Shown piece after piece: positions 16,261 through 37,220 of a stretch of 64,000 nt of DNA. The stretch is from Pachyseris speciosa (taxonomy: Eukaryota > Cnidaria > Anthozoa > Scleractinia > Pachyseridae). The position numbers and the translations under genes were made by a program. The stretch is taken from positions 56,001 to 120,000 of the forward strand of contig JAEMWC010000991.1 in assembly GCA_016490735.1 (NCBI GenBank). The letters run 5' to 3'. Within the stretch, counting starts at the first letter, position 1, and each line of letters begins with the position of its first letter. The notes under the pieces are model-generated. The model was not told the origin of the DNA and made no database searches. It worked only from the letters and a program-made list of their open reading frames with translations.

Positions 16261-16608
16261 GGGCGAGATCCATTTGGTCAAAAATATCGGAATTTTCGGT
16301 TCAGAGGTAAATGGAACGGTAATTTCCGGAAAGTTCATCTCGAAAATTTTGGTCAACCACTCAAGATTGTCCATTTTCCCGAAATATCGGAATTACCGGG
16401 AAATTTTCTGTTCCATTTGGCATTTCATTTCGGTGAGACACTCGGCTCCCCCAGTTTCCCTTGCTGTCAGATGTCGAAGGCAAGATGGCGCAATCTGCGT
16501 TATGCCAATGGGACGAGACCGGTTTACTGAAGTAGAAAAACCGTTCCATTTGATACCTGAGTATTTCGGAAATTCAAACCGAAATTTTTGCCCAAATGGA
16601 TCGCGCCC
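16261..16608. repeat. MITE adjoining the Polinton
   Basis: Inverted ends: GGGCGAGATCCATTTGG at the left, and CCAAATGGATCGCGCCC at the right, with imperfect complementarity for about 65 bp (AAATGGAACGGT pairs with ACCGTTCCATTT). It is flanked by TAT on both sides, a possible 3-bp target-site duplication. Its right end lies only about 10 bp from the Polinton terminus. The open frames inside come from the palindromic sequence and are not considered genes. Confidence 0.6.
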
Positions 16609-16619
16609 TATAGTAATAT

Positions 16620-16892
16620 AGTGTTTGGGGGTACCAGAACAAAAATGGGGTGTTTTAGCAAAATGATCTCGTATTCTGGAATATATAGTTATTTAATTTG
16701 ATGGAATATATAGTTATTTAATTTGATGGAATATATAGTTATTTAATTTGATGGAATCTATAGTTGTTCAATCTGATGGAACCAAGGTCTGCACACTTTG
16801 AATTTATGGTTCAATCTGATGGAATCTATAGTTTATTAAAATGCGTGACTTTCTCGGAAAAATCACCAAGCGTGACATTCTCGGAAAACAGG
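16620..16892 (+). repeat. Polinton left terminal inverted repeat
   Basis: 273 bp, nearly identical to the reverse complement of 36446-36719. Next to the tip it holds four tandem units of about 25 bp (GGAATATATAGTTATTTAAT and relatives, 16678-16777), then ATGGTTCAATCTGATGG variants. Such subterminal iterations could bind integrase or the replication-priming protein, but this is inference. Confidence 0.95.
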
Positions 16893-16978: not shown

Positions 16979-17542
16979 ATGAGTTGTAATTCAGTAATCC
17001 ACCATGAATTGAAAAATATGGGAGAATTGTCATGTTATTTTTGTGATCAGCTATTGGTCAAAGTTGTTAAAAGTGTGAAAGCACCTTGCTGTGATAAACA
17101 GGAATTGTTTAAAGATAATGGTGAAAATGTTTGTCTAAATTGTGGTTCAGTTCATGGTTATGATTATTGTAAAGAGTACGTTGACTTTCATAATAATATG
17201 TATAAAATACGGCGAAAATCAGTATATCACCGGAAGTACCATATTGAAAATGTGATAAATGGTATATGTCGCAAGAATAGATTTCAAATTTCAGTAAAAG
17301 ATAAAGGCAAAATATTGAAAATATTTGAAGAGATAGACACAGTCCTTCCTTTGGTAAATAAGAATCGTAAAAGGATGATAAGCACGAAATTTATGCTTAA
17401 GCAAATATTTTTAATGCTTGATCTTCCATTTGATGAAATAATAGTTACTAGATCAAAAAAGACGCTTGGATTTTATGATCAATATTGGGTTGAGATTCTA
17501 TTGTTGAGATTTGATAAGATTATTCCTATTATCAAGCAGTGA
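16979..17542 (+). CDS. VLTF3-like late transcription factor (poxvirus A2L-like)
   Basis: A 187-residue protein with paired cysteines typical of a zinc ribbon: CYFC at residues 19-22, PCC near 37, and CLNCG near residue 53. A conserved YxxxxYHRKYHIENVI-like segment follows (about residues 75-92) and a basic C-terminal half. This arrangement matches the VLTF3-like family, known from poxviruses and giant viruses as a late-gene transcription factor and also found in Polintons and adintoviruses. It is the first gene inside the left repeat and is transcribed inwards. No TCTAA motif precedes it; the upstream DNA is an AT-rich TAATATTATAG block. The frame is intact from a clear ATG. It may act on the TCTAA late-type promoters of this element, but that is inferred. 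Confidence 0.8.
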   Translation: MSCNSVIHHELKNMGELSCYFCDQLLVKVVKSVKAPCCDKQELFKDNGENVCLNCGSVHGYDYCKEYVDFHNNMYKIRRKSVYHRKYHIENVINGICRKNRFQISVKDKGKILKIFEEIDTVLPLVNKNRKRMISTKFMLKQIFLMLDLPFDEIIVTRSKKTLGFYDQYWVEILLLRFDKIIPIIKQ

Positions 17543-18299
17543 ATTTTTCATCATATTTCTGTAGGTACTTATCAATAATTGGACTATTGTCAGTCACATA
17601 ATCATCGATATTCTTCATTGAGATTTGTATACTTGAAGCATCAAAATCACCACTTCTCAACTTGTCTTTTATTGAATTGAGTAGATGTTGATAGCTTTGA
17701 TAAGCATATGTGCAATTTTGGATTTTCAAATCTAGGTTTTTATGCTTCATCCAGCCTTGTATTAACATTGATACTGTACTGATGGCTACCAAACTAACAC
17801 CACCGGTTGAAATACTTGCAGCAAGACCACCAGTTGCAAATAAAATGGATGCCGAATTGCCAGCTAATTTCCATTTTTTGAACCGTTTAACCGCCTGTTT
17901 ATGAGCCCAACACTTTCTGTGATATGAATGTTGTGCCGCGTAGCACTAGGAACACAAATAGTGGAACAGAGAATCGTCCCCGACTTTCTCTGTGCGACCT
18001 TGTAGCTCAGTCGGCAGAGTAACGGTAGATCTAATCCGGAGGTCGTGGGTTCGATTCCCACCGAGGTCAAAAGATTTTTTCTTTGCCTCGTGTGGTTCCC
18101 TGTTTCCCTTTACTAAGGCTAACGCCCAGTGGGTTATTCATGGGTTTAAGTAGCACTTTAATTTACACTTCAGAGTTAATTCTCTGTTCCACTACTTTCT
18201 GTGATATGTTCGGTAATAGGATTTTAATTCATTTACCTGATCTTCTGTTAATTCACCTGAAATATGGTTCCAGCTGAATATGCTTTTTCGCTCTTTCAT
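17532..18299 (-). pseudogene. Small two-helix membrane-like protein gene, split by a SINE
   Basis: The 3' part (17532-17911) encodes a hydrophobic stretch rich in A, S, G and I, which could form one or two membrane helices, followed by a charged C-terminal region of about 90 residues. The 5' part (about 18209-18299) starts at an ATG at 18297-18299. The two parts are separated by a 267-bp SINE and one copy of its 15-bp target duplication. The same frame runs on either side of the insertion, so the ancestral product would have been roughly 160 residues. Its 3' end overlaps the VLTF3-like gene tail to tail. I do not recognise the family. As it stands only the C-terminal 86 residues from an internal ATG (17790-17792) are open. 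Confidence 0.7.
17912..18208 (+). repeat. tRNA-derived SINE inserted in a Polinton gene, with 15-bp TSD
   Basis: The SINE body (17927-18193) is flanked by perfect 15-bp direct repeats, ACTTTCTGTGATATG, at 17912-17926 and 18194-18208. A tRNA-like region occupies 17996-18068. It has a 7-bp acceptor pairing (GACCTTG/CGAGGTC), an A box (TAGCTCAGTCGGCAGAGT) and a B box (GGGTTCGATTCCC), but its anticodon arm does not pair properly. GGAACAGAGAAT near 17963 is inverted as ATTCTCTGTTCC at the 3' end. It clearly arrived after the Polinton. Confidence 0.9.
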
Positions 18300-19690: not shown

Positions 19691-19706
19691 ATATTATTAT
19701 TTTAGA
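19691..19706 (-). promoter_or_regulatory. Late-type promoter motif of collagen/LamG fibre gene
   Basis: TCTAA on the minus strand (19702-19706), then AT-rich spacer and ATATATG. The first T lies 16 nt from the A of the ATG. Confidence 0.6.
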
Positions 19707-22700
19707 TTAATTCATGACTACTTCAAGTGTGAATGCTGTATCAAATTCTCCACTATTGGGATGTGAATAGTCAATTATAAGATAGCCTCTCGATAATGAT
19801 TTATTGACGTTAACCGTTGCGATGTTTCTACTCATAGTATTATGTCTGTATTCAAAAATTGTTGCTGGTAATGGCAAAGGCCTACCACCTTCAGCTTTTG
19901 TCTTGAAATAAAATATTCCGGGTTTTGTTCCTTGTATTACATACATATTCTTAATGTGAAAGTTATTGTTATGAATGACTAAAAAATCAGAGCCATTTAT
20001 CAATACAGGCTTTAAAGCATTCTTATTATGTCCTCGTTTGGCTTTGACAGAGCAATTTAAATATTGTATTTGACCGATTATTCCATTCCCATTCAAATCT
20101 AGATCACCTCCTAATTTCGGCCTGTAAAGAGCAAATCCACCCAAATCGAGAGCTGTTTCCATGATTGCACCTGTAACGCTTTAACGAAATAGATTCAAAC
20201 TATTATTATGAATTCTATAGCCATTCAGATTTAAATCACCACCAAGTTTAGCCTCACTTATAAGAAAGCTGTTCATATTAATATTATTTAGCATTGTCAA
20301 TTCACCATTTTGACCGTCAAATAAGTTTGATGAATTATTAATCAAGGCATGTCCATTCAAATCTAAATCAGTTTGTAATTGCATTTTTTCATTCACGATT
20401 TTATAAGCTTCTGCGAAGTCGTAAACACTTGATGGAACGTCTACAGCTTCAAAATCAATACCATATGCAACACAATGAACTTTGTACTTATTTGGATAAG
20501 TTGGGTTAGCATTAATATGAATCGTACAATATAAATATTCAGGTGGTGAACTTACTGAAGGTTTTTCAATCCATAATAAATATCTCGAATGATCTTCATT
20601 TCTGTTATCAAATTTTCTCCCTACAGTTTTATGAATTGTAATTCCACCAGTTGCACTGAATGTTACACTACTAAGATTCATTCCTTCATAATCAGGAAAT
20701 AGCCATTCAAGAATAAATGTGTATTTTCCGTCTTTTATTGTGTACATATTAAAACCAATTCTAGCTCTGTAAATATGATTAGCTTCTTTATTCAAGTCTA
20801 TATCAATGACCTTTTTTAAAATCAAATGCGGTGAACGAGGTAAATTGACATATCCAATAACTTTCAAGCCATATTCAGTACTGACTTCATCGATATCATT
20901 CATCAAATATTTGAAAGCATTCTTTGGATGAGAAGCAGATGAAATGTGACTTTTTTCTAACTGATCTAAATTTACGGCATCGGTTTTATTTGTTCCTTCT
21001 TTTAAGTTAATGATTTTATGCCCTCCAAGTTTTAAGTCTGCTGCCATCGCATTTGTTCCATTCAATAATAAAGTGTTCGCTCTAATAGCTATTCCAGCTC
21101 GATTTAAAACTCTGAAGTTCACTGCATCAGTTTCATTCGAAGGGTCCGCTAAATTCGTCACTCTATTTCCACTCATTGACAAATCGCCATACATTGCAGT
21201 TGAACCGTCTCGTCGGAGAAAATACTCGTCAGTATATCTTTTTGTAACCGCATCATCTAAATTGACGGGTGGAGCAAGATCAGTGATGGCATTGTTGTTC
21301 ATATTCAGATTTTGTTGTGCTGTTGTGTTTAATTTTAGCGAAACCTGATTATCAACATAACTTTTGTTTACAGCGTCTTGTGGGTTTGAGGGGTTATCCT
21401 GCAGGTTGAGGATTTTGTTCAATTTCATGTCAATATTACTACCAAACGCAACATGGCCGTTTTCAATTTCATACGCTGGGTCATGGAGAAAGTAAGACAA
21501 ATTGGTATGATAGCCATAGGCCCCATAAACGATGATATGTGTTTTGGTGTTAGACGCAGGAGCTGTGCTGGAAAGTTCCACCTGTATTGCCGCTTGACCA
21601 CCACTTGTTTTTTTCTATCTGGAAAAGTTTTTTCATGTAACCATCAACGTGTGGAGTTTGGGGAAAAGGTTTTTGAAATGGCTGTCCCGCATCTCGTATA
21701 TTTACAGTTGGAATGAATAAATCAATTGTTGCATTTCGAGGGTCTGAGGGTGAGAAAAACTCAGTAACAAATGTGTACCGTCCATTTCTCAAAGATGCCA
21801 CATTAAAACGAATTTCGGATGTAAAGTTACCACTATGTGAAATGATAAGAGACAATGAGGACTTGTTTATGTGGTATGGTGATCTATCAAAATTCTCAAT
21901 TTGAAGGTTTGCTGCATCACTAACTACAGAAGACTTGGATTTGTCTTTTAACAGAAAAGCGAATGGGTTGCGTTGAGCTCCTGATGCTGAAAAAAAAGGT
22001 CATCAACATACTTTTTGTTGGCAGAATCTTTATCAGAGTTTGGAGATCCAACATTTGTCATTTTATTGTCACCCATGTCAAGATCACCAGTCATTGCAAC
22101 AGTTCCATCTTTTTTAAGAAATGGAGAAACATCAATGCCAGTAATTCCAGCAATTTCAGTATCAACATACCCCTTTGTGGCTGAATCATTGTTTGCTGTT
22201 GGCGCTGCTACATTAGTCAATTTATTACCTCCAAGATTCAAATCAGAAGTCATCGCAACGCTTCCATCTTTTTTCACAAAGTTAGAATTAACATATGCTG
22301 TATCCGCTTTATTATTCGTCAGATATATGACACCATCATCAACGTATTTTTTATTTGCACAGTCTTGTCGTAATATAGGGTATGCAACATTGACTATTCT
22401 ATGAAAACTCATTTTAACCTCACGATCAAATACAATTCTTCCTTCTTCTATTTCAAAAGCTGGGTCGTGAATATGTGATAAAATGATATTAGAAAATCCA
22501 TAAACACCATAAACTATGACATGATGTTTGGCATTATTTGATAAATATGGTGAGATCAACAATAATTCCATTGATGTCTGACCAACTCTAGTTTTTTCAA
22601 GGAAGAATATTCTCTTAAGATAACCATCGACAAGATGAGTCTTTGGAAATGCTCTTTTTATCGAATCCTTTCTTTCAATTAAATTAGATGACAGATTGTC

Positions 22701-23273
22701 GTCATCGACTGTTGCATTATTTGGGTTACCATCAGTATAAAACTCAACAACTAAAGTGTACTTTGAAACTTCCAATTGTGTCAGATCAAAACGAAGAACA
22801 GTTGTAAGACCGGCAGTAGGAATAACAAAAGACAAGGCTTTTTTATTTATTGAGTAAGGGCTTTTATTAAAATTTTCCAATTGCAGATTATTCGCATTTC
22901 TAAGAATAGTTGTTTTTGATGTATCTTCAAGAAGAAATTTAAATGGATTAACACGTGTTCCTTCAATTGATAAAACAGCATCATTAACATATCCCAAGTT
23001 AGTAGAATCTTAATGATTTACTGGATCACCAACATTTGTCAAACGTTTATTTTCAATATCATAATTGCCATCTTGTGTTAATCTAAATCCATCACCTGTT
23101 TCACCTTTATTACCTTTGAAACCAAATGGACCTCTATCACCTTTATCACCTTTTGGACCTCTTTCACCTCTATCACCTTTTTCACCTTTGGGACCAATTG
23201 GACCAGCTGGACCTCTTTCACCAGTTCCAGTTTTTGTTTTATCTTGATTTATTGGAGAATTAAAAACTCCCAT
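19707..23273 (-). pseudogene. Large tail-fibre-like spike gene (collagen stalk plus DAVNKxYVD repeats), broken
   Basis: The 3.6-kb gene is seen in pieces: 23273-23010, 22997-21948, 21855-21550, 21581-20181 and 20162-19707. It opens MGVFNSPINQ, then a collagen-like G-x-y stalk of about 45 residues (GPKGEKGDRGERGPKG), then LTQDGNYDIENKRLTNV. The body has at least six copies of a pattern seen in phage tail fibres: N-K-hydrophobic-T-N-hydrophobic, x-x-P, four or five residues, then D-A/S-x-N-K-x-Y-V-D. Two related beta-rich modules (YTLVVEFY/YTFVTEFFSP, HHVIVYGVYGF/HIIVYGAYGY) and DLDLNGN-type repeats also occur. The breaks are in-frame TAA at 23010-23012 and 20181-20183, and frame changes at the A/T homopolymers 21990-21997 (8 nt) and 21608-21614 (7 nt). 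Homopolymer slips may be assembly errors; the TAA codons less likely. The inferred role is host recognition. Confidence 0.8.
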
Positions 23274-23290
23274 TATATCATCTTGTTAGA
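23274..23290 (-). promoter_or_regulatory. Late-type promoter motif of large fibre gene
   Basis: TCTAA on the minus strand at 23286-23290, 17 nt before the ATG, with the start set in GATATAATG. Confidence 0.6.
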
Positions 23291-23497
23291 TTAATCATCT
23301 TCCAAGAATTCATAGATGACAGGTAGTCTCTTATTGTTTTTCAATACTTTTTGTGTCCTCCTGTTTACTTCCATTTTGATTTTTTCAGCGATTTCAAATG
23401 GTGTTTCAACATCAGCGTCAGGTTTGATCAATTTTTTGATTCTTTCTGTTCTGGGATTCTCCTGTTTTTCTGGATTTTGAAAATTGTTGATTGCCAT
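23291..23497 (-). CDS. Small charged Polinton protein
   Basis: A 68-residue protein rich in K, E and N, with no cysteine, signal peptide or membrane helix. It sits between the packaging ATPase and the large fibre gene on the same strand, with only about 20 bp on either side. It has its own double TCTAA motif. I do not recognise the family. Its position suggests a small virion or assembly factor. Confidence 0.6.
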   Translation of the reverse strand: MAINNFQNPEKQENPRTERIKKLIKPDADVETPFEIAEKIKMEVNRRTQKVLKNNKRLPVIYEFLEDD

Positions 23498-23513
23498 ATA
23501 ATATTAGATTAGA
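23498..23513 (-). promoter_or_regulatory. Double late-type promoter motif
   Basis: Two TCTAA words on the minus strand, at 23509-23513 and 23504-23508. They lie 16 and 11 nt before the ATG, which is set in ATTATATG. Confidence 0.6.
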
Positions 23514-24152
23514 TTAAACAGCACCATAAATATTTCTCTTGATTGTCTTCATCGGCTTGTCAACATAACAGAAGGAATAAGGTTTCTTGGTGGCCTCAAT
23601 GTATTTCTTCTTGTCTATTCCAAGTTCTTGTGCAATCAAGTTCCTTTCTCTTGTGGATGGAAAATCATAAATGCAGAAGTGACTGCAATTGAGTCTGATT
23701 GATTTTGGACAGCCATAGAATGATTGTGTGAGATATATGACTGAACAGTTCTTGTGTCTCCCCTGAATGAAATAGCTGATTATCTGATCTTGTTTTTTAT
23801 CAGTGACAAAATCATCAAAAACAACCAATCGCTGCAAATCTGTGTCTTTTATTTGTTCAACTGGCAATATCTCTTCTTGACTGCAAACCAAGGCAGGATA
23901 TCCAATGTGACTGCTTATTTCATCCATGACTTTCCGCAGATATTGATACTTGTCTTGATCCAAATTTTTTGCATAAAGATGTATCTGATCATAATAGACC
24001 AACGGTTCCATAATCAGATGCATGAACAATGTTGTCTTTCCAGATCCTGAATTACCAGCCAGCAGCATCCTGAAAGTGTCTTTTGGCATATACGGATACA
24101 ACTGTCTGAATGAATTCTTTGAACCCTGAATATCATAATTAGGGATTTCCAT
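23514..24152 (-). CDS. FtsK/HerA-type genome-packaging ATPase (A32-like)
   Basis: A 212-residue P-loop ATPase. Walker A is GNSGSGKTT at residues 33-41, Walker B is LVVFDDF at residues 109-115, and a GRHKNCSVIYLTQSF segment (about residues 131-145) carries the conserved glutamine/arginine region typical of viral packaging ATPases. It would pump element DNA into capsids. Length and motifs are as in Polinton, virophage and adintovirus ATPases. The frame is intact. It is divergently arranged with the coiled-coil gene at 24189, and the 36-bp gap holds a motif for each direction. Confidence 0.92.
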   Translation of the reverse strand: MEIPNYDIQGSKNSFRQLYPYMPKDTFRMLLAGNSGSGKTTLFMHLIMEPLVYYDQIHLYAKNLDQDKYQYLRKVMDEISSHIGYPALVCSQEEILPVEQIKDTDLQRLVVFDDFVTDKKQDQIISYFIQGRHKNCSVIYLTQSFYGCPKSIRLNCSHFCIYDFPSTRERNLIAQELGIDKKKYIEATKKPYSFCYVDKPMKTIKRNIYGAV

Positions 24153-24168
24153 ATGTTAATAGTTTAGA
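24153..24168 (-). promoter_or_regulatory. Late-type promoter motif of ATPase gene
   Basis: TCTAA on the minus strand at 24164-24168, 16 nt before the ATG. It forms one half of a compact divergent promoter. Confidence 0.6.
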
Positions 24169-24172
24169 TTAG

Positions 24173-24188
24173 CCTAACACAATTGTAT
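24173..24188 (+). promoter_or_regulatory. Late-type promoter motif of coiled-coil gene
   Basis: CCTAACACAATTGTATATG on the plus strand. CCTAA lies 16 nt before the ATG at 24189 and differs by one base from TCTAA. Confidence 0.5.
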
Positions 24189-24977
24189 ATGGATATAGAA
24201 CGAATGAAAAGGCTTCTTAAAAGTGGAATTGAAGCTGGAAATAAAACTAGAGAAGTTCGTGAGGTTATCAAGACTTATGAAAATAGAAAACAGGATGCAT
24301 ATGATACAACATCAGAATTGCTAAAACCCTCTATTGATGTCCAGAAGAGTGTGAAAGAAAGTGTCGACAAAAAACAGGATGAAGTTATTGAACAGTTGAA
24401 AAAAAATCAAAAAGCCTTGACATCTGGTTTTGAAGATCTTATGCTATTAAACACGTTACCTGAATCAGTACCTATGAAAACAACATTACCAATTGATTAC
24501 AAACCTAAAATGATGACTGAAACAGAACCAAAGTACAAGTCAAATCTTGACAAAGGTTTCTCACTTGATGAGGTTAAGGTATTACAGGAATATGAATTGT
24601 CTCCTCCAACAACAATTTTAGACAGGATAATGGATGGTTCAATCGACATCGACAAGTATAACAAAAATATTCGTGAAATAACCAAGCAACTTGGAAGACA
24701 AAAAGCTCATCTATCAACAACCAAAACAAATAGGGATAAAAACAAAGATAAGATATATGAATTAACTCAAAGGATCAAACTAATGCAAAAGTACCGAAAA
24801 AGAATGGAAACTGTTAAGGAAGGTGCACAAACTGTTGGTTCAGGCATGGGAAGGAGAAGAGGTGCAATGGGTTCAAGGGATGCATTTTTGGGTGACATGC
24901 TTTCAAGACTGCAGTTGCTTGGTGGATCTATTTCAGCCGGCAACAACAGCAAAAATGTTCAAAATGAATTCACATAA
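24189..24977 (+). CDS. Coiled-coil Polinton structural protein
   Basis: 262 residues from the ATG at 24189. An earlier in-frame TTG is less likely, since the late-type motif is spaced for 24189. The N-terminal third and the region around residues 160-215 are highly charged and heptad-like (KKQDEVIEQLKKNQKAL, KIYELTQRIKLMQKYRKRM), predicting coiled coils. A proline-bearing middle and a glycine/arginine-rich C-terminus (GSGMGRRRGAMGSRD) follow. I do not recognise a named family. It lies between the ATPase and penton genes, a position that fits a minor virion or scaffold protein. The frame is intact. Confidence 0.7.
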   Translation: MDIERMKRLLKSGIEAGNKTREVREVIKTYENRKQDAYDTTSELLKPSIDVQKSVKESVDKKQDEVIEQLKKNQKALTSGFEDLMLLNTLPESVPMKTTLPIDYKPKMMTETEPKYKSNLDKGFSLDEVKVLQEYELSPPTTILDRIMDGSIDIDKYNKNIREITKQLGRQKAHLSTTKTNRDKNKDKIYELTQRIKLMQKYRKRMETVKEGAQTVGSGMGRRRGAMGSRDAFLGDMLSRLQLLGGSISAGNNSKNVQNEFT

Positions 24978-25045
24978 ATATTGCATACATTGAACAGACT
25001 GGGAATCCTGAAAACCGGTGAGTTGAATAAAATAATGATGAAATA

Positions 25046-25061
25046 TCTAATGTAATAGTAT
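25046..25061 (+). promoter_or_regulatory. Late-type promoter motif of penton gene
   Basis: TCTAATGTAATAGTATATG. TCTAA lies 16 nt before the ATG. Confidence 0.6.
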
Positions 25062-25847
25062 ATGACAGAAATTTCATTACGATTCAACAGTAAAAACAGA
25101 GACAAAATTGGTGTCAGCAAGAGTCATGATTTTGAAAAAAGATTCAATACACCTCTTAAATTAACGAATGATTTAAAATATGAAATGGCTGTGAATGTTA
25201 TCAATATGACATACAGTTGGTACAATATCAGAGATATTTTTGGGAATAATCAAATGAAATATAGCTATGACAAAGGTGTAAACTGGGAAACAATAACATT
25301 CGTTGACGGGATGTATTCATACGACGATATCAATAGTTACATTCATGAGTATATGAGAAAAAACAGCCATGTACTGAATCCATCTGAAACAGACAAATCA
25401 AAATTCAAGTATGGTATTAACATGTATTTCGTTTTGTCAACATATCGCATTTTGATTGAACTTGATGAAAACTATAGAGTGGATCTGAGAAATCTTGATT
25501 TCAGAAAACTTATCGGTTTCAATTCAAAATTAGTTCCAGCCACAGAATATGGAACAAATCTACCTGATATTACAAGAGGAGTAGATGAAATTTATATCAA
25601 TTGTGATTTGGTGATAGATAGCATTGTTGATGGCAATAGCACAAATACAATCGCAGTTATTCCAGTCACAGATCTAGTTAGAAGTTTACCTTTCACTTAC
25701 AAACCTCGTTTTCTTTCATGGAATCCTGTCTCAACACATACAATCAGCTCAATACGCTTTTATGTCACTGATTCTTCTAGACAGCCAGTCGATTTAAATG
25801 GGATAGATTGGTATATTGAGTTATTCTTGAGAGGTGTGGAATTATAA
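25062..25847 (+). CDS. Minor capsid (penton-like, single jelly-roll) protein
   Basis: 261 residues in one intact frame. The beta-rich sequence starts with SLRFNSKNRD and ends with FYVTDSSRQPVDLNGIDWYIELFLRG. The closing pattern of a residue pair like R-P-V-D-L-N-G followed by a hydrophobic beta strand is characteristic of the penton-like minor capsid protein of Polintons and virophages. That protein closes the five-fold vertices of the icosahedral shell. Length fits the family. It lies just upstream of the small basic protein and major capsid genes, the usual Polinton order. Confidence 0.85.
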   Translation: MTEISLRFNSKNRDKIGVSKSHDFEKRFNTPLKLTNDLKYEMAVNVINMTYSWYNIRDIFGNNQMKYSYDKGVNWETITFVDGMYSYDDINSYIHEYMRKNSHVLNPSETDKSKFKYGINMYFVLSTYRILIELDENYRVDLRNLDFRKLIGFNSKLVPATEYGTNLPDITRGVDEIYINCDLVIDSIVDGNSTNTIAVIPVTDLVRSLPFTYKPRFLSWNPVSTHTISSIRFYVTDSSRQPVDLNGIDWYIELFLRGVEL

Positions 25848-25849
25848 AA

Positions 25850-25860
25850 CCTAATAGTAT
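25850..25860 (+). promoter_or_regulatory. Late-type promoter motif (short spacing)
   Basis: CCTAATAGTATATG. CCTAA lies 11 nt before the ATG, and the first bases overlap the end of the penton gene region. Confidence 0.45.
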
Positions 25861-26091
25861 ATGAAACGGTTTGAGTTTAAAAAATATGAACAACATGGTG
25901 AAGGTATTGTGACTGATATGATCAAAACAGCTGGAAAAAAAGCAGCCACAACAATTGGTGAACATGCTGGCAAAAAAGCTGGTGACAAAATCATAGAACT
26001 TTTGAAAAAGAGGAAGAGTGGAACTGAGAGTGTGAGCCAGACTGGTGGTTTAATCAAAAGAAAGAGAGGCCGACCACGTAAAATAAAATAA
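25861..26091 (+). CDS. Small basic AT-hook virion protein
   Basis: 76 residues, strongly basic. The middle is an alanine/lysine/glycine amphipathic helix (AGKKAATTIGEHAGKKAGD) and the C-terminus a classic AT-hook (KRGRPRK). A core-type role is likely: binding element DNA in the capsid, or a membrane-active peptide like adenovirus pX/pVI. The placement between the penton and major capsid genes supports a virion protein. The frame is intact. Confidence 0.75.
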   Translation: MKRFEFKKYEQHGEGIVTDMIKTAGKKAATTIGEHAGKKAGDKIIELLKKRKSGTESVSQTGGLIKRKRGRPRKIK

Positions 26092-26097
26092 CTTTTA

Positions 26098-26113
26098 TCT
26101 AACACAATAATAT
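26098..26113 (+). promoter_or_regulatory. Late-type promoter motif of major capsid gene
   Basis: TCTAACACAATAATATATG. TCTAA lies 16 nt before the ATG. It is almost the same as the motif at 24173. Confidence 0.65.
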
Positions 26114-27393
26114 ATGTCAAACTATCGTGACTCAAAATATATCGAAAGATATGAAGATGTAGTGTTCGAACTAGAGACAGCACTTAATACTGTAGTAGCA
26201 AACAATGATCATCAGAGGAAAACAGGTTATCGATTCGTTGTTGATAACAGTGGAGAGACAACACCATTTGACTGGTATAATGCCCGTTTTAATGTTGATT
26301 TCATTGTAAAGAAGCTTGCAGATGGAGACCACATTGTTGCTGATGATAGAAATGGTATTGTCAATTCAATTCACGCTCTTATAAACACCATTAATGTGAA
26401 AATGAATGGTATTGATGTTTATGAGTGCAGAGATGCCAACCAAGCCACTAATATAAGTCATTGCTTGAGTATTCACAGGGTTATGCTGTAAGTCAGGGAA
26501 CCAATGAGTTCTTCTATCTCGACGACAAAAGACAAGCCGAAGACAGAGTTGGCCAGGCGGCTAATTATAACAAAGGTTTCGCAGCTCGCAAAGCGCTGTT
26601 GAATGGTGCAGCCGGTAAAGTAAATGCAGAGCTTGCATTGAACAGATACGGTTTTTTCAAGAGCTTTTGGGATGAACTTATGCCTAACTCTAAATTGGAG
26701 GTCAACTTGACACTTGAGAGTGATGCCAATATGATTTGGCAAGCTGCAGATAATTGTCGTGTGGTACTAACTAAATTCCAGCTAATTGTTCCTCGCATTA
26801 TTTTTAATTCTACAGGAAAGTCCTTATACATGAGCAAGTATCTTGACAACAGAAAGTGGATTTACATGAGAGAAATGGTTGAGAGAGGCAATTCAACAAG
26901 ACAACAGACTGCCAATTTCCGTATTTCCACGGGAATAAACAAACCCAGGCATGTTCTTTGTATTCATCATCAATGATGCAAGTGATGCATCTCAGACAGC
27001 CAATAAATTTCTCTATAACACATTCTCAGTTGCAAATAACCGAACTTTGACTGATTGTTATCTTGAGGTTGGCAATGGAAATGATTATCCGGAGGTCCAT
27101 CAACTGAACCAACAAGAGTATTTAGAGATGTTTTGAAATATGTTCAAGCTGTAAACGATTTCAGTGAAAGTACCCTTCTTAACAGGGGCAATTTCGGTAC
27201 AATATTCCCTTTTGTTTATTTCGATCTGACAAAACAGAAACAGGATATTAAAGATGGAATGACAAAACTGACTTTCAAATACACTTTGAGTGCTGCAACA
27301 AATGCTGATTACAGTGTGTATGCACTGGTCCTCTATGAGCAGGATATTGAGATGAGAAAGACTGATGGAAAATTAATTCTGAGATCAATGTAA
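26114..27393 (+). pseudogene. Major capsid protein (double jelly-roll), frameshifted
   Basis: Four overlapping frames (26114-26491, 26461-26976, 26951-27136, 27133-27393) together span about 425 codons, the length expected for a Polinton double jelly-roll major capsid protein. Family-like features are a N-terminal segment DWYNARFNVDFIV, a central region with ALNRYGFFKSFWDELMPNS, RKWIYMREMVERGNS, and a C-terminal FALVLYEQDIE-like strand. The frame changes near 26452, near 26950-26957 and between about 27080 and 27125. The breaks are single-base gains or losses. None lies in a long homopolymer, so they look like genuine decay. An intact protein would form the hexagonal capsid lattice; this copy cannot make it. 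Confidence 0.85.
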
Positions 27394-27489
27394 ATGGAAT
27401 AATTAAATTAAATAATTGAATAATTAAATAAATTAAATAAATTAAATAATTGTTTGTATTAAATACAATTTAGTGTAAACATATATTAT
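27394..27489. promoter_or_regulatory. Capsid-virion protein intergenic region with weak late-type motif
   Basis: A tandem AATTAAATAAATT-type tract is followed by TGTAAACATATATTATATG. TGTAA (27474-27478) lies exactly 16 nt before the ATG at 27490, so it may be a degenerate form of the TCTAA motif. Confidence 0.35.
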
Positions 27490-28337
27490 ATGACTACTTA
27501 TCATCCTCATGGAGTAAGACTTTCACAGGGTCAGAAACAAAAGCTTGCAAAAGCTATACAAACAAATTCACCGGTAACATTGAGACTTGAACATGGAGAT
27601 CTCACTGGAGGTGATCAAATGATGTTGACAAAAACACAGATAAAAAATTAGCCAAAGCACAGAGAAATGGAACAGGTGCTGATGTAAAGATATCCAAAGC
27701 ACAGATCAGAAAATCAGTCCAAGAAGGAGGTTCTCTTTGGTCCAGTCTTTTTTCACTTGGAACAAGACTATTGCCTTATGCAGGTAAAGCAGTAGCTAAA
27801 GCGGCTCCAGCATTGGCCACAGGTGCTCTTTCTTCATTAGCAAGTCTCGGTATTGATAAACTATTTGGAAAGAAACAAAAAGGAGGATTTCTTATTCCTA
27901 ATGCCAATTTATCCCAATTATTGAATGTAGGAAATTTATTGAATACGAGACAGATGGCAGATGTTATTCAAAAAATGCAGTATGGTGGAGACGTTGTTAT
28001 CAAACCAACAAAAGCGCAGACTGGAAAGGGTATTGGAACAATACTCGCCAGTATTGGAATTCCTTTGGCTATAGAAGCAATTAGAAAATTAACTGGAAAA
28101 GGTTTGCATGTTGAAAGCAGCCGTCCAAGACGGTCAATACCAGTTCACGTTCCAGATGACATAAGTGGTGGGAAACATGCTATGATTCCATGGCGATCCC
28201 CTCCTGTTTTTGGTACATGGGATAACCCAATAGGCATGGGAATGAAAAAAAAAAAAAGAAAAACCAAAGGAAAAGGACTTCTACTAGGCAAAAACAGTCC
28301 ATTCAATTCAATCCCAATTCTAGGAACAATACTTTAA
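27490..28337 (+). pseudogene. Glycine/alanine-rich virion protein (pVI/pX-like), frameshifted
   Basis: The ATG at 27490 opens a frame of about 53 codons that stops at 27649-27651. The rest of the gene is in another frame, open from about 27650 to 28337. The shift coincides with an A6 run at 27642-27647. The downstream part has two glycine/alanine-rich amphipathic segments (AGKAVAKAAPALATGALSSL and GIGTILASIGIPLAIEAIRK) and a lysine-rich C-terminus with an A13 run at 28244-28256. Such proteins in adenoviruses and adintoviruses disrupt membranes or coat DNA. The assignment is by character and position only. The lysine run is itself a hot spot for length errors. Confidence 0.65.
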
Positions 28338-28345
28338 AATTCATA

Positions 28346-28801
28346 AACAAACCCTTATCCAACTTTGATTTAATCAATTGGGTGAAACAACTTGGAATAA
28401 AACATTTTAGAGGAGTATTTTCAAGAGACAATCTTCCTAGACAAATCAAAAACAATGAATGTGGGATAGTCAATCTTGATTCACAAATTGGACCAGGTAC
28501 ACATTGGGTATGTTATCGGAATTTCAAAAATGACAGATACTGTGAATACTTTGACTCATTTGGTTTAATGATGCCAACAGAAGTACAGAAATACATGGCT
28601 ACAAGTGGAAAACAACTTGAATACTCTGGTGATGAGATACAAGAAAGGGATTCAGTCTTGTGTGGATATTGGTGTTTGTACTATCTTCTTGAGAGACAAA
28701 AAGGCAGATCTATTCTGAATACAATACACAATTCCAAATTCAGTCCAACAGATACGAGTGTCAATCACAGATTCATCACAGACTACTTTGAAAATATCTA
28801 A
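28346..28801 (+). CDS. Adenain-like cysteine protease (maturation protease)
   Basis: A C5/Ulp1-fold protease that would cut capsid and virion precursors during maturation. Counting from the GTG at 28382, the triad reads His41 (GTHWVCY), Asp58 (EYFDSFG) and Cys94 (LCGYWCLYY), with Gln87 in the oxyanion position. The order H-D-C and the spacing fit adenain-like Polinton proteases. No ATG precedes the conserved part in this frame. The frame is open upstream and overlaps the end of the virion protein gene, and the conserved N-terminal words (FDLINWVKQLG) begin before 28382. The start is therefore unresolved and may have been lost, or reached through the overlapping frame. Confidence 0.85.
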   Translation, partial: NKPLSNFDLINWVKQLGIKHFRGVFSRDNLPRQIKNNECGIVNLDSQIGPGTHWVCYRNFKNDRYCEYFDSFGLMMPTEVQKYMATSGKQLEYSGDEIQERDSVLCGYWCLYYLLERQKGRSILNTIHNSKFSPTDTSVNHRFITDYFENI

Positions 28802-28813
28802 CTTATATGTATA
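28797..28813 (+). promoter_or_regulatory. Late-type promoter motif of small zinc protein
   Basis: TCTAACTTATATGTATAATG. TCTAA lies 17 nt before the ATG and overlaps the stop codon of the protease gene. Confidence 0.6.
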
Positions 28814-28972
28814 ATGGTGAAATCATATTGTGTTAAACAGAAGAAAGTCACTGAATGTGTACCAGGAAGTGAAAGATATCAGAAGACTAAAAATGGTCGA
28901 ACTGTGATGAAATGTACTTGTGCTGAATGTGGAATCACAAAGACTAAATTTGTCAGAAATCGGGGAAACTAA
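28814..28972 (+). CDS. Small zinc-ribbon-like protein (DUF5679-like)
   Basis: 52 residues. The pattern is YCVK near the start, NGRTVMKCTCAECG in the middle, and KFVRNRG at the end. It resembles the tiny DUF5679-type zinc proteins found in giant viruses and Polintons, in which two Cys-x2-Cys pairs bind zinc. The first pair here is incomplete: the second cysteine is replaced by glutamine (YCVKQKK), while the second pair (CAEC) is intact. The function is unknown in the family. The gene starts 13 nt after the protease stop codon and has its own TCTAA motif. Confidence 0.7.
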   Translation: MVKSYCVKQKKVTECVPGSERYQKTKNGRTVMKCTCAECGITKTKFVRNRGN

Positions 28973-29016: not shown

Positions 29017-29657
29017 ATGGCACTAACAGGATTCTTAGAACATGGTGTCCCTTATTTAGCGAAGAAGGGTGTTGAAATGGGTAGATATTATGCATCAGAA
29101 GCAATGAGAAATCCAAAGCTGCAAAAGAAATTAATTGACAAAGGACTTTCCCTCGCAAAGCCTGCAATCACAAAGGTTGGGTCAGAAGCTTTGAAACAAC
29201 TCTCAACAAAAGTGAGACCAAATATTCGTTACAAAACAGATATCAAAGGATTAGATTATGGCGGTGCTATTGACATTCATAAGGTTATTGGCAAGCTTCC
29301 TAAACCGAAAAGTGGATTGACACCCGGAAAGTATAAATATATGGGACCTTATAATCCCCTCGATAAACAGTTAGAGTATGATGAAAACACAGGTGAGGTC
29401 ACAAAATGGTAATGTCCAACCTTACAACAAGGTAGATGAAATAGCAGCATATCACGATATATTGTTATGATATGGGAAAAAATAAAGGTGATTGTGATAA
29501 AACAATGGTCGAGTCACTTGATCTAATACCATATGGTGAGATGCCAAAATGGGGTCAAACAGCCAGATTCTTAATTGACAAAAAACAGAAACTTGGTCTC
29601 GGCATTTCAAAAAACGGAAAAAGCCGTCGAGTGAAGAAAACTGGCAAGAAAAACTAG
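29017..29657 (+). pseudogene. Phospholipase A2-like virion protein (parvovirus VP1u-like), frameshifted
   Basis: The 5' part (29017-29412) has an amphipathic helix-rich N-terminus and ends in a calcium-loop-like YMGPYNPLD. After a frame change near 29413 the DNA encodes PYNKVDEIAAYHDI, with the catalytic His-Asp pair. After a second change at about 29462-29466 it continues as YDMGKNKGDCDKTM to 29657. This order (Y-x-G-P-x-N-P-L-D, then H-D-x-x-Y-D) is that of secreted and parvoviral phospholipase A2, which helps virions leave endosomes. PLA2 domains are known in parvoviruses and some adintoviruses. Both breaks are single-base. The 3' end overlaps the start of the integrase frame. The protein is not makeable as it stands. 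Confidence 0.8.
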
Positions 29658-30577
29658 CTGATGAATTACATGCACCCATAAAACGAAATTTCACTCGGCG
29701 GCGTGTGATTGTAAATAAAATTGATGAAATATGGGCAAGTGATCTAGTTGAAATGCAACAGTTCAGTAAATGGAATAAAGGTTATCGATATCTTCTTATG
29801 GTTATTGATGTCTTCAGCAAATATGGTTGGATTGTCCCATTGAAGGATAAGAAAGGTGAATCTGTCACTGAAGCATTCAAAACAATATTCAAGGAAGGCA
29901 GAAAACCACAGTATTTATGGGTCGACAAGGGAAAAGAGTTTTACAACAAACACTTGAAGGACTTGCTAGAGAAACATAGTGTACAGATGTACTCAACTGA
30001 GAATGAAGAGAAGTCATCAGTAGTTGAAAGATGGAATAGGACAATGAAGTCCAAAATGTGGAAGCAGTTCACTGTTCAAGGTAATACACAGTATTTAGAC
30101 ATGTTACCAAAATTAGTGAAACAGTATAATAATACCAAACATTCAAGCACAAAGATGACACCCGTTGAAGCATCTGATAAGAGGAATGAAGGAACTGTTT
30201 ACTTCAATTTGTATGGTGATATGAAAACATTAAAACAGAAACCGAAATTTAAAATAGGTGATAAGGTCCGAATATCCAAGTATAAACGGAATGTGTTCGA
30301 CAAGGGCTATACACCAAATTGGACTGAAGAAGTGTTTACAGTTGATAAGATCCAGTACACTAATCCAATAACATACATAATAAAGGATCTGAAAGGTGAA
30401 GATATTGAAGGGAGTTTTTATGAAGCTGAATTATTAAAAGCCAGACAGGATGTATTCCGTATTGATAAAGTCATTCGCAGAGATTACAAGAAGAAACAAG
30501 CTTTGGTGAAGTGGAAGGGTTACAGTGATGAATTTAACAGTTGGATACCGTTCAAGGATTTAAAAGACATATTATAA
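29579..30577 (+). CDS. Retroviral-type (rve) integrase with C-terminal chromodomain
   Basis: The DDE integrase that inserts the linear element. Counted from the GTG at 29705, the catalytic residues are Asp13 (WASDLVEM), Asp74 (WVDKGKEF) and Glu108 (VVERWNRTMK). The C-terminal 45 residues form a chromodomain (KVIRRDYKKKQALVKWKGY, then W-I-P-F), which may direct insertion to histone-marked chromatin. The frame is open back to a stop at 29576-29578. Family-typical words (ELHAPIKRNFTRRR) lie before 29705, so the true N-terminus is upstream, but no ATG is seen in that stretch. The first 80 bp overlap the PLA2-like gene. The catalytic core shows no breaks. Confidence 0.93.
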   Translation, partial: QKTETWSRHFKKRKKPSSEENWQEKLADELHAPIKRNFTRRRVIVNKIDEIWASDLVEMQQFSKWNKGYRYLLMVIDVFSKYGWIVPLKDKKGESVTEAFKTIFKEGRKPQYLWVDKGKEFYNKHLKDLLEKHSVQMYSTENEEKSSVVERWNRTMKSKMWKQFTVQGNTQYLDMLPKLVKQYNNTKHSSTKMTPVEASDKRNEGTVYFNLYGDMKTLKQKPKFKIGDKVRISKYKRNVFDKGYTPNWTEEVFTVDKIQYTNPITYIIKDLKGEDIEGSFYEAELLKARQDVFRIDKVIRRDYKKKQALVKWKGYSDEFNSWIPFKDLKDIL

Positions 30578-30588
30578 AGAGAAAATTA

Positions 30589-30601
30589 TCTAACATATAT
30601 G
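30589..30601 (+). promoter_or_regulatory. Orphan late-type promoter motif
   Basis: TCTAACATATATG. TCTAA lies 10 nt before an ATG (30599-30601) that is followed at once by TGA. The usual arrangement is present but no gene follows it, so a small gene may have been lost between 30601 and 30660. Confidence 0.4.
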
Positions 30602-30666: not shown

Positions 30667-30691
30667 TATATTTAAACACAGGTCGAAAATG
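30667..30691 (+). promoter_or_regulatory. Putative early-type promoter block (Bro-N gene)
   Basis: TATTTAAACACAGGTCGAAAATG lies here, ending about 31 nt before the ATG of the Bro-N gene. A near copy precedes the polymerase gene at 31841-31864. It is not found before the structural genes. Confidence 0.5.
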
Positions 30692-31840: not shown

Positions 31841-31864
31841 CATATTTAAACGCAGACGGAAATG
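31841..31864 (+). promoter_or_regulatory. Putative early-type promoter block (polymerase gene)
   Basis: CATATTTAAACGCAGACGGA and the next four bases (AATG) match the block at 30667-30691 at most positions. It ends about 35 nt before the polymerase ATG at 31899. Confidence 0.5.
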
Positions 31865-31898: not shown

Positions 31899-34800
31899 AT
31901 GGAAAAAATTATCGAAACTATTAGTAATATGGACAAGAAAAGTCTCAAAAAATTGAGCAAATCTAAGCTAATCGAATTGCTGTTGAAGCAGCAGAAAAAG
32001 CCTAAAGTTATTATAGTTGATGACACAAAACCTGTGCCTAAACCAAGAACAAGACCAATTCCTGCACCAAGGACGAAAAGACCAACTGTGAAAGAATTGG
32101 TTGATTATTTTGAGAGGAAAAGACTTCCAGCCCCACCTGCTGAATGGTTGGAAGAAATAGAACAATTGAAAAAGAGACCAATTCCCGCCCCAAGAGCCAA
32201 AAAGCCTGTGCCGGTTCCAACACCCAGAACAAAAATAGAGCAAACAGAGAAAGCTCTAAAAGGTTTCACAAAATCTTTTGAAATCAGTATAAAAAAATCA
32301 AAGACCCGCTTGCGCAACTGCAAAACACAAGAAAGGCTGTTGCATATAATATTATAAAATCGTTGAATGAAATTAAAGGTCTCAAATTTGTTGAAACACT
32401 CAAGGTAACATTTGCAAAAATGACTGACGGACAATTAGAGTTTAAAACAGCATATTTCAACAGTGCAGCTCAAACAATTGTGAATAATCTGGAAGTAACT
32501 GAATCACTGCAGTTGTCAAAAGACCAAATAATGAATAAGATTGCAGTTTGGGTATCTGAGGGTTCAGGTTGGACAATTGAATCTGTTGACAGCCATTACC
32601 TCAATGTTGTGAAATATGCGCCAATGAGAGGCTCCTCATACATAAAACTACCAAATGAACTTAGAAACAGTGCGAAGGGTTTAATTAACTTGAAAAATGA
32701 GGATAATGAATGCTTCCGATGGTGCCACATCAGACACCTGAACCCACAAGAGAAATACCCACAGAGGGTTAAAAAATCAGACAAGCAATACATTGAAAAA
32801 TTGGATTATTCAGGGGTTGAATTCCCAGTTGCAACCAAGCATTACAACAAGATAGAGAAACAAAATGAGATCAACATCAATGTATTCGGTTATGAGGAGA
32901 AACAACCTTATCCAATATATGAATCAAAAGAGAAATATGCAGACTGCTTGAATCTGCTTCTAATAACTGAAAATGAAAACAAGCATTATGTGCTGATCAA
33001 AGATTTCAATAAGTTTATGTACAAACAAACAAAGCACAAAGAAAGAAAACACTTTTGTATGCACTGTCTTCAATGCTTCAGCTCTGAAAGGGTGTTGAAT
33101 GATCACAAGGACAACTGCATGCAAGTAAATGGCACACAGGCAATAAAAATGCCAAACAAAGATAACAACATACTGAAATTCAACAACTTTCATAAACAAC
33201 AGCAGGTACCATTTGTGATCTATGCTGATTTTGAGGCCATCACTGAAAAAATGCACGGTTGTCAACCCAACAATGATAAATCATATACAGAGGCTTATCA
33301 GAAGCATACTGACTGTGGCTACGGCTATAAAGTTGTTTGTTGCTATGACGATAAATATAGCAAACCAGCAGCAATATACAGGGGTGAAAAGGCTGTGTAC
33401 AAATTTATGGAAGCTAAGCTGGAGGAGGTCAAATATTGCAAGAATGTTGTGAAAAAAAATTTTAACAAACCATTGAAAATGACTAAAGATAATGAAAAAG
33501 AATTCCAAAAAGCTGAAATGTGTCACATCTGTGATAAGAAATATACTGAAAAGGATATTAGAGTCCGAGATCATTGTCACATTACTGGTAAATACAGAGG
33601 TTCTGCTCACCAAGATTGTAATCTGAAACACAGAGTGAACCCAGAAGAAATAAAAATACCTGTTATATTCCACAATCTGAGAGGCTATGATAGTCATTTT
33701 ATTATGCAGGAGATTGGAGCCATTGTTAAGAAGCACACTTACAAAAACAAGAAAGGTGAAGACTGTCAAATGAATATCAATGCTATCCCAAATAACATGG
33801 AGAAGTATATGGCTTTCATGCTTGGCAACCACTTGACCTTCATTGATAGTTTCCAGTTCATGAGCTCCAGTTTGGAAAAACTTGTAGGCAATCTACCAAA
33901 AGAAGCCTTAAAATACACCTCACAAGAGTTCAAGGGAAATGATCTCAATCTGGTGGCACAGAAAGATGTTTATCCATACGACTTCATGGACAGTTTCGAT
34001 CAATTCAATCAGAAGCTGCCCTCAAAAGAAGAATTTTACAGTATATTGAGTGATGAGCATATATCAGATGAAGACTATACACATGCTCAGACAGTGTGGG
34101 AAACATTCTCTTTGAAAAACATGGGCGATTATCATGACCTGTACCTTAAAACAGATGTACTCCTACTGGCTGATGTATTTGAAAACTTCAGAAAAACATG
34201 CCTTGAGTACTATAAACTGGACCCGTGTCACTATTTCACATCTCCTGGTTTATCTTGGGATGCCATGCTGAAAATGACTGACATAAAATTAGAATTGATG
34301 ACAGACATTGATATGTTTCAATTCATTGAAAAGGGCCTACGTGGTGGTATCAGTTATATAGCCAACAGATACGGAAAAGCAAACAATAAATACATGAAAG
34401 AGTATGACGAGAAGGCGCCCTCGAAGTACATCATGTATCTTGATGCTAATAATTTGTATGGTTGGGCTATGAGTCAATATTTACCAACCGGTGGTTTCAA
34501 ATGGTTGACACAAAAACAGATCAATAATTTAGACCTGGCTAAGTATAAAGAAGACAGCAACAAAGGTTTGATACTTGAAGTTGACCTTAAATACCCCCAA
34601 GAGTTACATGATCTACATAATGACTACCCACTTGGGCCGGAAAAGATTAAAGTGACTGGGGACATGCTATCAGATTATTGTAAAAACATAGCAAAGAAAT
34701 ATAAAATATCAACTGGTCTGGTACATAAACTGATACCAACATTAAGCAACAAAGAAAAATACGTGCTCCATTATAGGAACCTCCAATTATATACTGATCT

Positions 34801-36445: not shown

Positions 36446-36719
36446 CCTGTTTTTCCGAGAATGTCACGCTTGGTGATTTTTCCGAGAAAGTCACGCATTT
36501 TAATAAACTATAGATTCCATCAGATTGAACCATAAATTCAAAGTGTGCAGACCTTGGTTCCATCAGATTGAACAACTATAGATTCCATCAAATTAAATAA
36601 CTATAGATTCCATCAAATTAAATAACTATATATTCCATCAAATTAAATAACTATATATTCCAGAATACGAGATCATTTTGCTAAAACACCCCATTTTTGA
36701 TCTGGTACCCCCAAACACT
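36446..36719 (-). repeat. Polinton right terminal inverted repeat
   Basis: 274 bp, reverse complement of the left repeat with only a few differences (for example CCAGATC against CCAGAAC near the tip). It carries the same series of about 25-bp units. Confidence 0.95.
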
Positions 36720-37220
36720 ATACTACTCCCTATAATACAAAAGATGACGGAAGCTTAGTTACGGGTCAGAACACTAAAATAATTTTAAATCAATTCACGC
36801 AAAACGAGATCTTTCACGAATCACGTTCAATTAAAGTGTTCGTTAACGTGTCACGCTTAATTCAAAAACCGCTTTCACGTGTCAATCACGAATCACGAAT
36901 AAATAAAAACTTAAATCACGTTTCACAAGGAAAAAACTAGGCTGAATCACGTTTCACGAAAAAAGTAAAGGGGACCCTTTTTGATCGTTCACGGTTTATG
37001 CGGTGGTTTTCATAACCTTAAAAAATTTGTACTTCAATGCCGACTGATGGCGTAAGGCTTGTTAAGAGTATAAAATCACTGATTTTATACTCTTAACAAG
37101 CTACATATCACAAGTATTTTTACCAGTGTGCTTTTGACATAATTTGTGCGTTTAGAGTGCACATTAATCGAAAATTAACAACCACTTATTACGATTCTAC
37201 TTAGCTTATATTCCCCATAA
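36720..37220. other. Non-coding host DNA with TCACG-rich tract and a perfect hairpin
   Basis: TTTCACG/TCACGAATCACG words recur many times between 36790 and 36965. At 37057-37101 two perfectly complementary 22-nt arms (starting GCTTGTTAAGAGTATAAAAT) are separated by a single C. No coding region is present. Confidence 0.6.

Follow-up and report, generated by a model that had tools for sequence, protein, structure and literature searches.

A TCTAA-N8-TA box before the particle genes of a coral Polinton, a candidate near-leaderless late promoter

In the giant virus Cafeteria roenbergensis virus (CroV), a TCTA motif set in AT-rich DNA precedes 124 late genes (PMC5294985), and a promoter of this type is carried by the type-4 endogenous mavirus-like elements (EMALEs), including mavirus (PMC8547959), the only EMALEs that responded to CroV (PMC10945749); in mavirus, it stands before all genes (PMC6723459). 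Late promoters of poxviruses consist of a T-rich core, 5-7 bp, and TAAAT(G), which extends over the start codon and leaves no leader, and those of African swine fever virus (ASFV) consist of a core and a TATATA initiator (PMC5294985). Here we describe a box before the particle genes of a Polinton of the coral Pachyseris speciosa, an element that occupies positions 16612-36727 (20.1 kb) of a 64,000-nucleotide stretch of contig JAEMWC010000991.1 (hereafter, the window) in a host genome of 984 Mb in 2368 contigs. The box consists of the pentamer TCTAA and, eight bases on, a TA that runs into the ATG, and it is special by its position, not by its abundance, TCTAA being, if anything, rare across the window (157 occurrences versus a mean of 185 in shuffles). 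Judged from the sequence, TCTAA-N8-TA(T/TA)ATG is likely to be a near-leaderless, late-class promoter of the particle genes that is read with the Polinton's own VLTF3-like factor.

As in CroV, mavirus, and the other type-4 EMALEs, the box has a TCTA core, is set in AT-rich DNA, and lies just upstream of Polinton-related genes. The initial annotation of the window had drawn attention to CroV and mavirus on these grounds; the shared core in AT-rich DNA bears this out, nothing beyond the core does, and we read the likeness as resemblance and not as kinship. The Polinton has TCTAA as its core, a fixed 8-nt step to the TA/ATG, and a VLTF3-like gene of its own, and unlike the promoter of mavirus, its box is kept off the replication genes. 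The closest architecture is that of the late promoters of poxviruses and ASFV, which are likewise bipartite with an AT-rich initiator, and VLTF3 is a late factor of poxviruses; the Polinton differs from both in its core and in that no RNA polymerase gene was seen in it, no search having been aimed at one.

All sites lie inside the Polinton, in front of structural genes on both strands, as had been annotated. On the minus strand, TCTAA precedes the genes for a LamG-like fibre (19702-19706; start 19690), a 68-residue protein (23509-23513; start 23497), and the packaging ATPase (24164-24168; start 24152) at d = 16, where d is the distance from the first base of the box to the ATG, and that for the large fibre (23286-23290; start 23273) at d = 17, giving TATAATG. 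On the plus strand, it precedes the penton gene (25046-25050; start 25062), where it overlaps Tyr-Leu codons of the upstream frame, and the major capsid protein (MCP) gene (26098-26102; start 26114; frame interrupted further on) at d = 16 and the gene for a DUF5679-like zinc protein (28797-28801; start 28814), with TATAATG, at d = 17. The initial annotation had these seven positions and distances right, and only its start codon for the zinc protein needs moving, from 28813 to 28814. Three further structural genes, all on the plus strand, carry other pentamers at d = 16, namely, the coiled-coil gene with CCTAA (24173-24177; start 24189), whose box stands back to back with that of the ATPase, the virion gene with TGTAA (27474-27478; start 27490), and the AT-hook gene with TAAAA (25845-25849; start 25861), a weak or decayed box. 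One more TCTAA, an orphan at 30589-30593 (plus strand), lies on the downstream side of the integrase gene, and the ATG that follows it runs straight into a stop.

The two strands of the Polinton hold 861 ATGs. TCTAA stands at -16/-17 before seven of them, every one a structural start; ten more such ATGs outside the Polinton bring the count for the whole window to 17 of 2314. Considering all 5-mers and spacings, we drew 2000 random sets of ten from the remaining ATGs and made 2000 shuffles; in neither control was the best pentamer shared by more than four starts, versus the seven of our ten chosen structural starts. Leaving out the LamG gene, whose N terminus is paralogous to that of the fibre, the count is six and still above the control maximum of four. 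When the ten sites are lined up by their pentamer, they read TCTAA or a variant, eight bases that lean to TAATA, and TATA (CATA in the ATPase gene) running into the ATG. A matrix built by leaving out each site in turn, with LamG and fibre kept out of each other's training, placed 8 of the 10 sites such that at most nine of the 127,962 other 19-mers in the window equalled or outscored them. None of the four nonstructural starts (VLTF3-like, Bro-N, 31597, and 31899) has TCTAA at -16/-17, and two further predicted minus-strand starts (18656 and 18299) lack the motif and have low matrix scores. At least 120 stretches in viral contigs contain TAATCTAAN8TATATG; among the 80 listed, each has a single match, and we read these as chance.

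The initial annotation had described a fixed distance to the ATG. What is fixed is the step from TCTAA to TA: the ATG lies at 14, 16, or 17, with d = 17 yielding TATAATG and d = 14, seen in some coiled-coil genes of other copies, yielding TATG, so that the constrained unit is the bipartite TCTAA-N8-TA. This constancy of the step under a shifting ATG points to a constraint at the DNA or at the start of the RNA and not at translation. Exceptions in the pentamer keep the step as well (four coiled-coil starts with TCCAA-N8-TATG and one start of the 68-residue protein with TGTAA-N8-TATG). At several starts, a tandem TCTAATCTAA (23504-23513 in the window; L215 to L218 among the divergent pieces described below) provides a second TCTAA at -11, which before the 68-residue protein gene lies at 23504-23508 (minus strand) and which could be a second core.

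The window's genome holds many relatives of this element. The ATPase query yielded 150 scored copies, 98-100% identical, among 3849 first-look candidates; the expansion of the Polinton in this genome is very large and partly recent, and the fibre modules vary among copies. For the structural genes, we used 30 pieces, comprising 20 of 9.2 kb around ATPase copies and 10 of 2.9 kb around penton copies, the latter mostly from more distant subfamilies (one copy, L130, has 1606 masked bases). Of the 164 starts of seven structural genes in these copies, 154 have TCTAA 15 to 17 nt upstream, that is, 26/26 for the large fibre, 15/16 for the 68-residue protein, 29/29 for the ATPase, 25/29 for the coiled coil, 26/30 for the penton, 29/30 for the MCP, and 4/4 for the zinc protein. 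CCTAA before the coiled-coil gene, annotated as a variant of the motif, is present at 24173 and is a private change of the window. Before the virion gene, where TGTAA had correctly been reported, the copies have TATAA in 17 of 19. In some copies, the start is no longer ATG (two for the fibre and one each for the 68-residue protein, coiled coil, and AT-hook). Over all 9061 ATGs, distance 16 from TCTAA is found 146 times, followed by 53 (48), 11 (47), 17 (44), and 59 (42), and only 16 stands out. A further sample of 20 penton starts (211 bases each), out of 145 scored, mostly has TCTAA, with TCTAC in L157 and L165, TCTCC in L152, and an inserted TA that shifts the ATG in L161.

The box is kept where the DNA upstream of it has changed, namely, before the ATPase in L187 to L190 and L192, before the coiled-coil gene in L187, and in the fibre modules of L132, L143, and L147. 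It also lies in leaders that vary little. For seven genes (the zinc-protein gene left out), each compared across 15 to 20 near copies, the 19 leader bases next to the start give 133 sites, of which 12 are variable, with five in the 68-residue protein, three in the penton, one each in the ATPase, coiled coil, AT-hook, and virion genes, and none in the MCP gene, compared with 18-41% of third codon positions in near copies. The 22-nt MCP leader has no variable site in 20 copies, versus 29% of MCP third positions. At the penton box, constraint on the protein is a confounder, because the box overlaps codons of the upstream frame; still, in 38 of 40 copies the Leu codon there is CTA, which accounts for 10.7% of the codons for Leu when eight of the window's gene frames are counted. 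That the box varies so little across many copies is indirect evidence for expression of the structural genes during the spread of the family.

To the near copies we added a divergent set around the ATPase copies that rank highest with P0109, consisting of four longer pieces with an ATPase identity of 74-77% and 20 short ATPase upstream regions, three of which are close to the window's family as judged by eye. The four pieces contain 443 ATGs; TCTAA is found 12 times at distance 16, nine times at 11, and four times at 14, and no other distance between 6 and 60 occurs more than three times. Fifteen of the 16 at distance 14 or 16 precede starts of the coiled-coil, AT-hook, MCP, ATPase, fibre, or penton genes; two of these frames, both in L218, break off soon after the start, and the fibre was identified visually by its MGIFN. 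The box is found in 4/4 fibre and 3/3 MCP genes, and three coiled-coil genes have an ATG. CCTAA at -11 of the AT-hook gene (25850, plus strand), taken in the initial annotation as equivalent to the motif, does not hold up: at -16, this gene has TAAAA in the window and in 25 of 30 copies and TCTAA in L187 and in the divergent pieces L215 and L217, and because of the latter two, its lack in the window's family is a loss or a weaker variant. Protein read-through served as a proxy for upstream DNA in other species, and by eye, 2 of 120 listed ATPases (P0004 and P0106) and 1 of 120 listed pentons (P0138) start upstream of the common start. In each of the three, Tyr immediately precedes the Met at which the others begin, in agreement with TAT-ATG, but three cases are too few; Tyr makes up 6.9% of residues. 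With both near copies and divergent relatives enriched for TCTAA at these starts, the motif is real and extends beyond the sites first noted.

The replication genes present a different picture. Bro-N and PolB have no box and share TATTTAAAC(A/G)CAG 53 and 56 nt before their ATGs, in the form of two candidate early (TATA-type) elements, TATTTAAACACAG at 30669-30681 (plus strand), 53 nt before Bro-N (30722), and TATTTAAACGCAG at 31843-31855 (plus strand), 56 nt before the first PolB frame, whose start at 31899 we assume from the neighbouring frames and from general knowledge. In 16 early-region pieces, read by eye, TATTTAAAC is retained in 12 of 15 Bro-N and 13 of 14 PolB copies, and it lies at varying distances from the Bro-N ATG; it looks like a TATA-type host promoter. 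TCTAA is missing at the box position across 15 Bro-N, 14 31597-gene, and 14 PolB copies, save for a single Bro-N copy considered below.

The Polinton also encodes a candidate reader of the box. A gene at 16979-17542 (plus strand) specifies a VLTF3-like late transcription factor of 187 residues, with a Cys-rich N-terminal part followed by a helical part, which matches Pfam PF04947 (Pox_VLTF3) with an E value of 2.2e-5 and 24.7 bits. Homologues at E <= 0.001 number 534, of which 120 are listed; of 45 aligned family members, 34 match PF04947 at E <= 0.01, the best at 2.5e-10, and cysteines 22, 37, 38, 52, and 55 are invariant. With a structure model of the protein (pLDDT 72, pTM 0.53), late-factor or VLTF3 names appear in 6 of the first 15 matches among viral folds, with relatives from entomopox-, cowpox-, pandora-, pitho-, and mimiviruses and ASFV B385R at rank 23. 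Against the PDB, 13 of 30 rows are TFIIB or initiation-complex chains of RNA polymerase II (Pol II) or III, none significant alone (best E 0.74); most of the initiation-complex chains are presumably TFIIB or Brf. Searching the PDB by sequence, with the VLTF3 profile as query, produced no convincing match (NusA was the best, at E 0.029). Upstream of the gene lies a weak box-like TATCA-N8-TAT, which with a score of 12.0 is the best of six other predicted starts, and the gene may thus have a weak box of its own. Two contigs of >500 kb, matched by size, are common to the listed ATPase and VLTF3 hits, where about 0.013 would be expected by chance, which suggests that the two genes share the same kind of element elsewhere; no contig of >500 kb is common to the listed penton and VLTF3 hits.

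Relatives of Polintons have been found with a VLTF3 before: compact adintovirus-like insertions of Amoebidium are reported to carry one with capsid proteins and PolB (PMC11244446); the available part of that report describes no promoter motif. Mriyaviruses, which are small (35-45 kb) and have VLTF2 and VLTF3, are placed in Nucleocytoviricota, and the paper on them states that VLTF2 and VLTF3 homologues had gone undetected outside that phylum (PMC11253617); the Polinton is like them in its VLTF3 and differs by its rve integrase and its Polinton ends. In the anemone Exaiptasia pallida, VLTF3 copies are reported to lie isolated among host genes (PMC5294986), and these might be borne by Polintons. 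Studies of virophage promoters exist; by title and the beginning of the abstract, we found no promoter study of Polintons proper, a survey that did not cover Stephens 2024 (coral polintoviruses) and Starrett 2021 (adintoviruses). A paper on vertebrate Mavericks leaves VLTF unmentioned and uses "promoter" twice, neither time for the Maverick's own genes.

We picture the working of the box as follows. TCTAA would be the core of a promoter for the particle genes; RNA would most likely start at the fixed TA eight bases on, making the late mRNA almost leaderless; and the box would be read by a transcription complex that includes the Polinton's own VLTF3-like factor, itself a good guess for the reader. 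For Bro-N and PolB, transcription would depend instead on the TATA-like element, which lies further from the ATG and leaves a leader of variable length, and host Pol II would presumably be the polymerase. We call the class "late" because its gene content is structural. On this scheme, the Polinton probably switches on its own particle genes late by itself, which would be the common late programme that the initial annotation had suggested, and the restriction of the box to structural genes and the presence of the VLTF3-like gene agree with it.

Several observations weigh against this scheme. The copies share ancestry, and their counts are not independent. In the near copies, TCTAA is found before only 1 of 30 AT-hook and 0 of 19 virion genes, and in the distance histogram, the counts at 53, 11, and 59 are as high as that at 17; these high counts arise because single sites recur in near-identical copies, and that at 11 because of the second TCTAA of TCTAATCTAA. 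The leave-one-out matrix is weak for the virion (62 better places) and zinc-protein (36) sites. Among the divergent pieces, TCTAA precedes two of four ATPase genes (one of the others having TCCAA and one neither), two of four AT-hook genes, and one of four penton genes, the other three having TCTAC. The 20 short ATPase upstream regions have TCTAA in 8, TCCAA in 10, and neither in 2, and because of the ten with TCCAA, the third base of the box is not rigid. The exceptional Bro-N copy (L169, 1 of 15) has TCTAA at -14, apparently because a deletion brought the orphan TCTAA, which the window has at 30589, to this place. As for the VLTF3-like protein, its Pfam match in the window falls just below the family cutoff (24.7 versus 25 bits), and none of its fold matches reaches an E value of 0.001.

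Other readers of the box have to be weighed against the Polinton's own factor. That it is read by a co-infecting giant virus, with the Polinton as a present or former virophage-like parasite in the manner of mavirus and CroV, had been offered with the initial annotation, and we consider it unlikely. A precedent exists in the TCTA before 124 late genes of CroV and in the type-4 EMALEs, which carry it and alone responded to CroV (PMC5294985, PMC8547959, PMC10945749); mavirus, however, has the promoter before all genes in the corresponding account (PMC6723459). This reading is disfavoured because the box is kept off the replication genes of the Polinton, unlike in mavirus, and because the Polinton has a VLTF3-like gene of its own; moreover, no giant virus came up in the host, whose genome was not searched for one. 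Nor do we find it probable that the box is an ordinary variant of a host Pol II promoter requiring no special factor. In favour of this reading, no polymerase other than that of the host is certain to be present, and TATATG resembles an AT-rich initiator, but TCTAA lies 13 nt from the presumed start, too near for a TATA box, which sits about 30 nt from the start, and the replication genes of the same Polinton use the different TATTTAAAC element.

A role in translation or RNA processing, be it as start-codon context, as a branch point for splicing or trans-splicing, or as an upstream stop or reinitiation signal, appears highly improbable to us, even though the box sits immediately ahead of the ATG and, at several sites, is in contact with the stop codon of the gene before it. 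The spacing is fixed to the TA rather than to the ATG, and the replication genes have no box. TCTAA does resemble the core of a branch point; AG occurs between the pentamer and the ATG in only 3 of the 10 sites and hence provides no general splice acceptor, and we rejected the splicing idea for this reason. Lastly, we give almost no credence to a box without function that merely reflects shared ancestry of duplicated gene starts: those of the LamG and fibre genes are paralogous, but no such resemblance is seen among the remaining genes, the box is retained where the flanks differ, and the leaders vary less than third codon positions.

A further proposal can be made, which is tentative and to which we would give somewhat less than an even chance. 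A Polinton without an RNA polymerase would use its VLTF3/TFIIB-like factor to redirect host Pol II to a private leaderless late promoter, thereby running an early/late programme in the style of giant viruses, and VLTF3 with the bipartite promoter would either predate Polintons and giant viruses or have been exchanged between them. The box and the resident VLTF3-like gene thus bear on whether late transcription of giant viruses has its roots in Polinton-like ancestors. A box that separates particle genes from replication genes also has a bearing on how Polintons time the expression of their genes and on whether they still make particles.

The assignment of the element to the Polintons/Mavericks rests on its ends and its integrase. 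Inverted repeats of 277 bp, 99% complementary and starting with AG, lie at 16612-16888 (plus strand) and 36451-36727 (minus strand) and are flanked by a 6-bp target-site duplication, CCCTAT, at 16606-16611 and 36728-36733 (no strand assigned). Inside both terminal repeats are repeats of about 25 bp (16677-16839 in the left one), which could be replication or regulatory iterons. The rve integrase has a chromodomain (Pfam PF00665, 4.6e-10, and PF00385, 2.6e-7); its frame (29400-29780) lacks an obvious ATG and shares bases with the end of the gene before it. The packaging ATPase is of the A32 type (PF04665, 1.3e-16), the Bro-N gene matches its family at 2.2e-25, the zinc protein is DUF5679-like at 6.7e-4, under the family cutoff, and an adenain-type protease gives a weak match (0.055). 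Pfam offers nothing relevant for the penton, which has 431 homologues, or for the first MCP piece; of the PolB pieces, scanned apart, the first matches only Endonuclease_7 (6.5e-5, just under the cutoff), and the second nothing relevant. The names penton, MCP, and PolB we take over from the initial annotation and general knowledge. The MCP, large fibre, and PolB frames are interrupted in the window's copy. Queries with the ATPase, penton, MCP piece, integrase, and VLTF3-like protein found no relatives among viral contigs, nor did the ATPase among prokaryote contigs or phages.

The N terminus of the fibre (23010-23273) has collagen-like G-x-y repeats, and its start is paralogous to that of the LamG-type gene (MGVFNSP). 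A sequence resembling tRNA-Arg(TCT) at 17996-18069 lies within the minus-strand gene that starts at 18299 and is flanked by repeated CATATCACAGAAAG; it looks like an insertion of a tRNA-derived short interspersed nuclear element.

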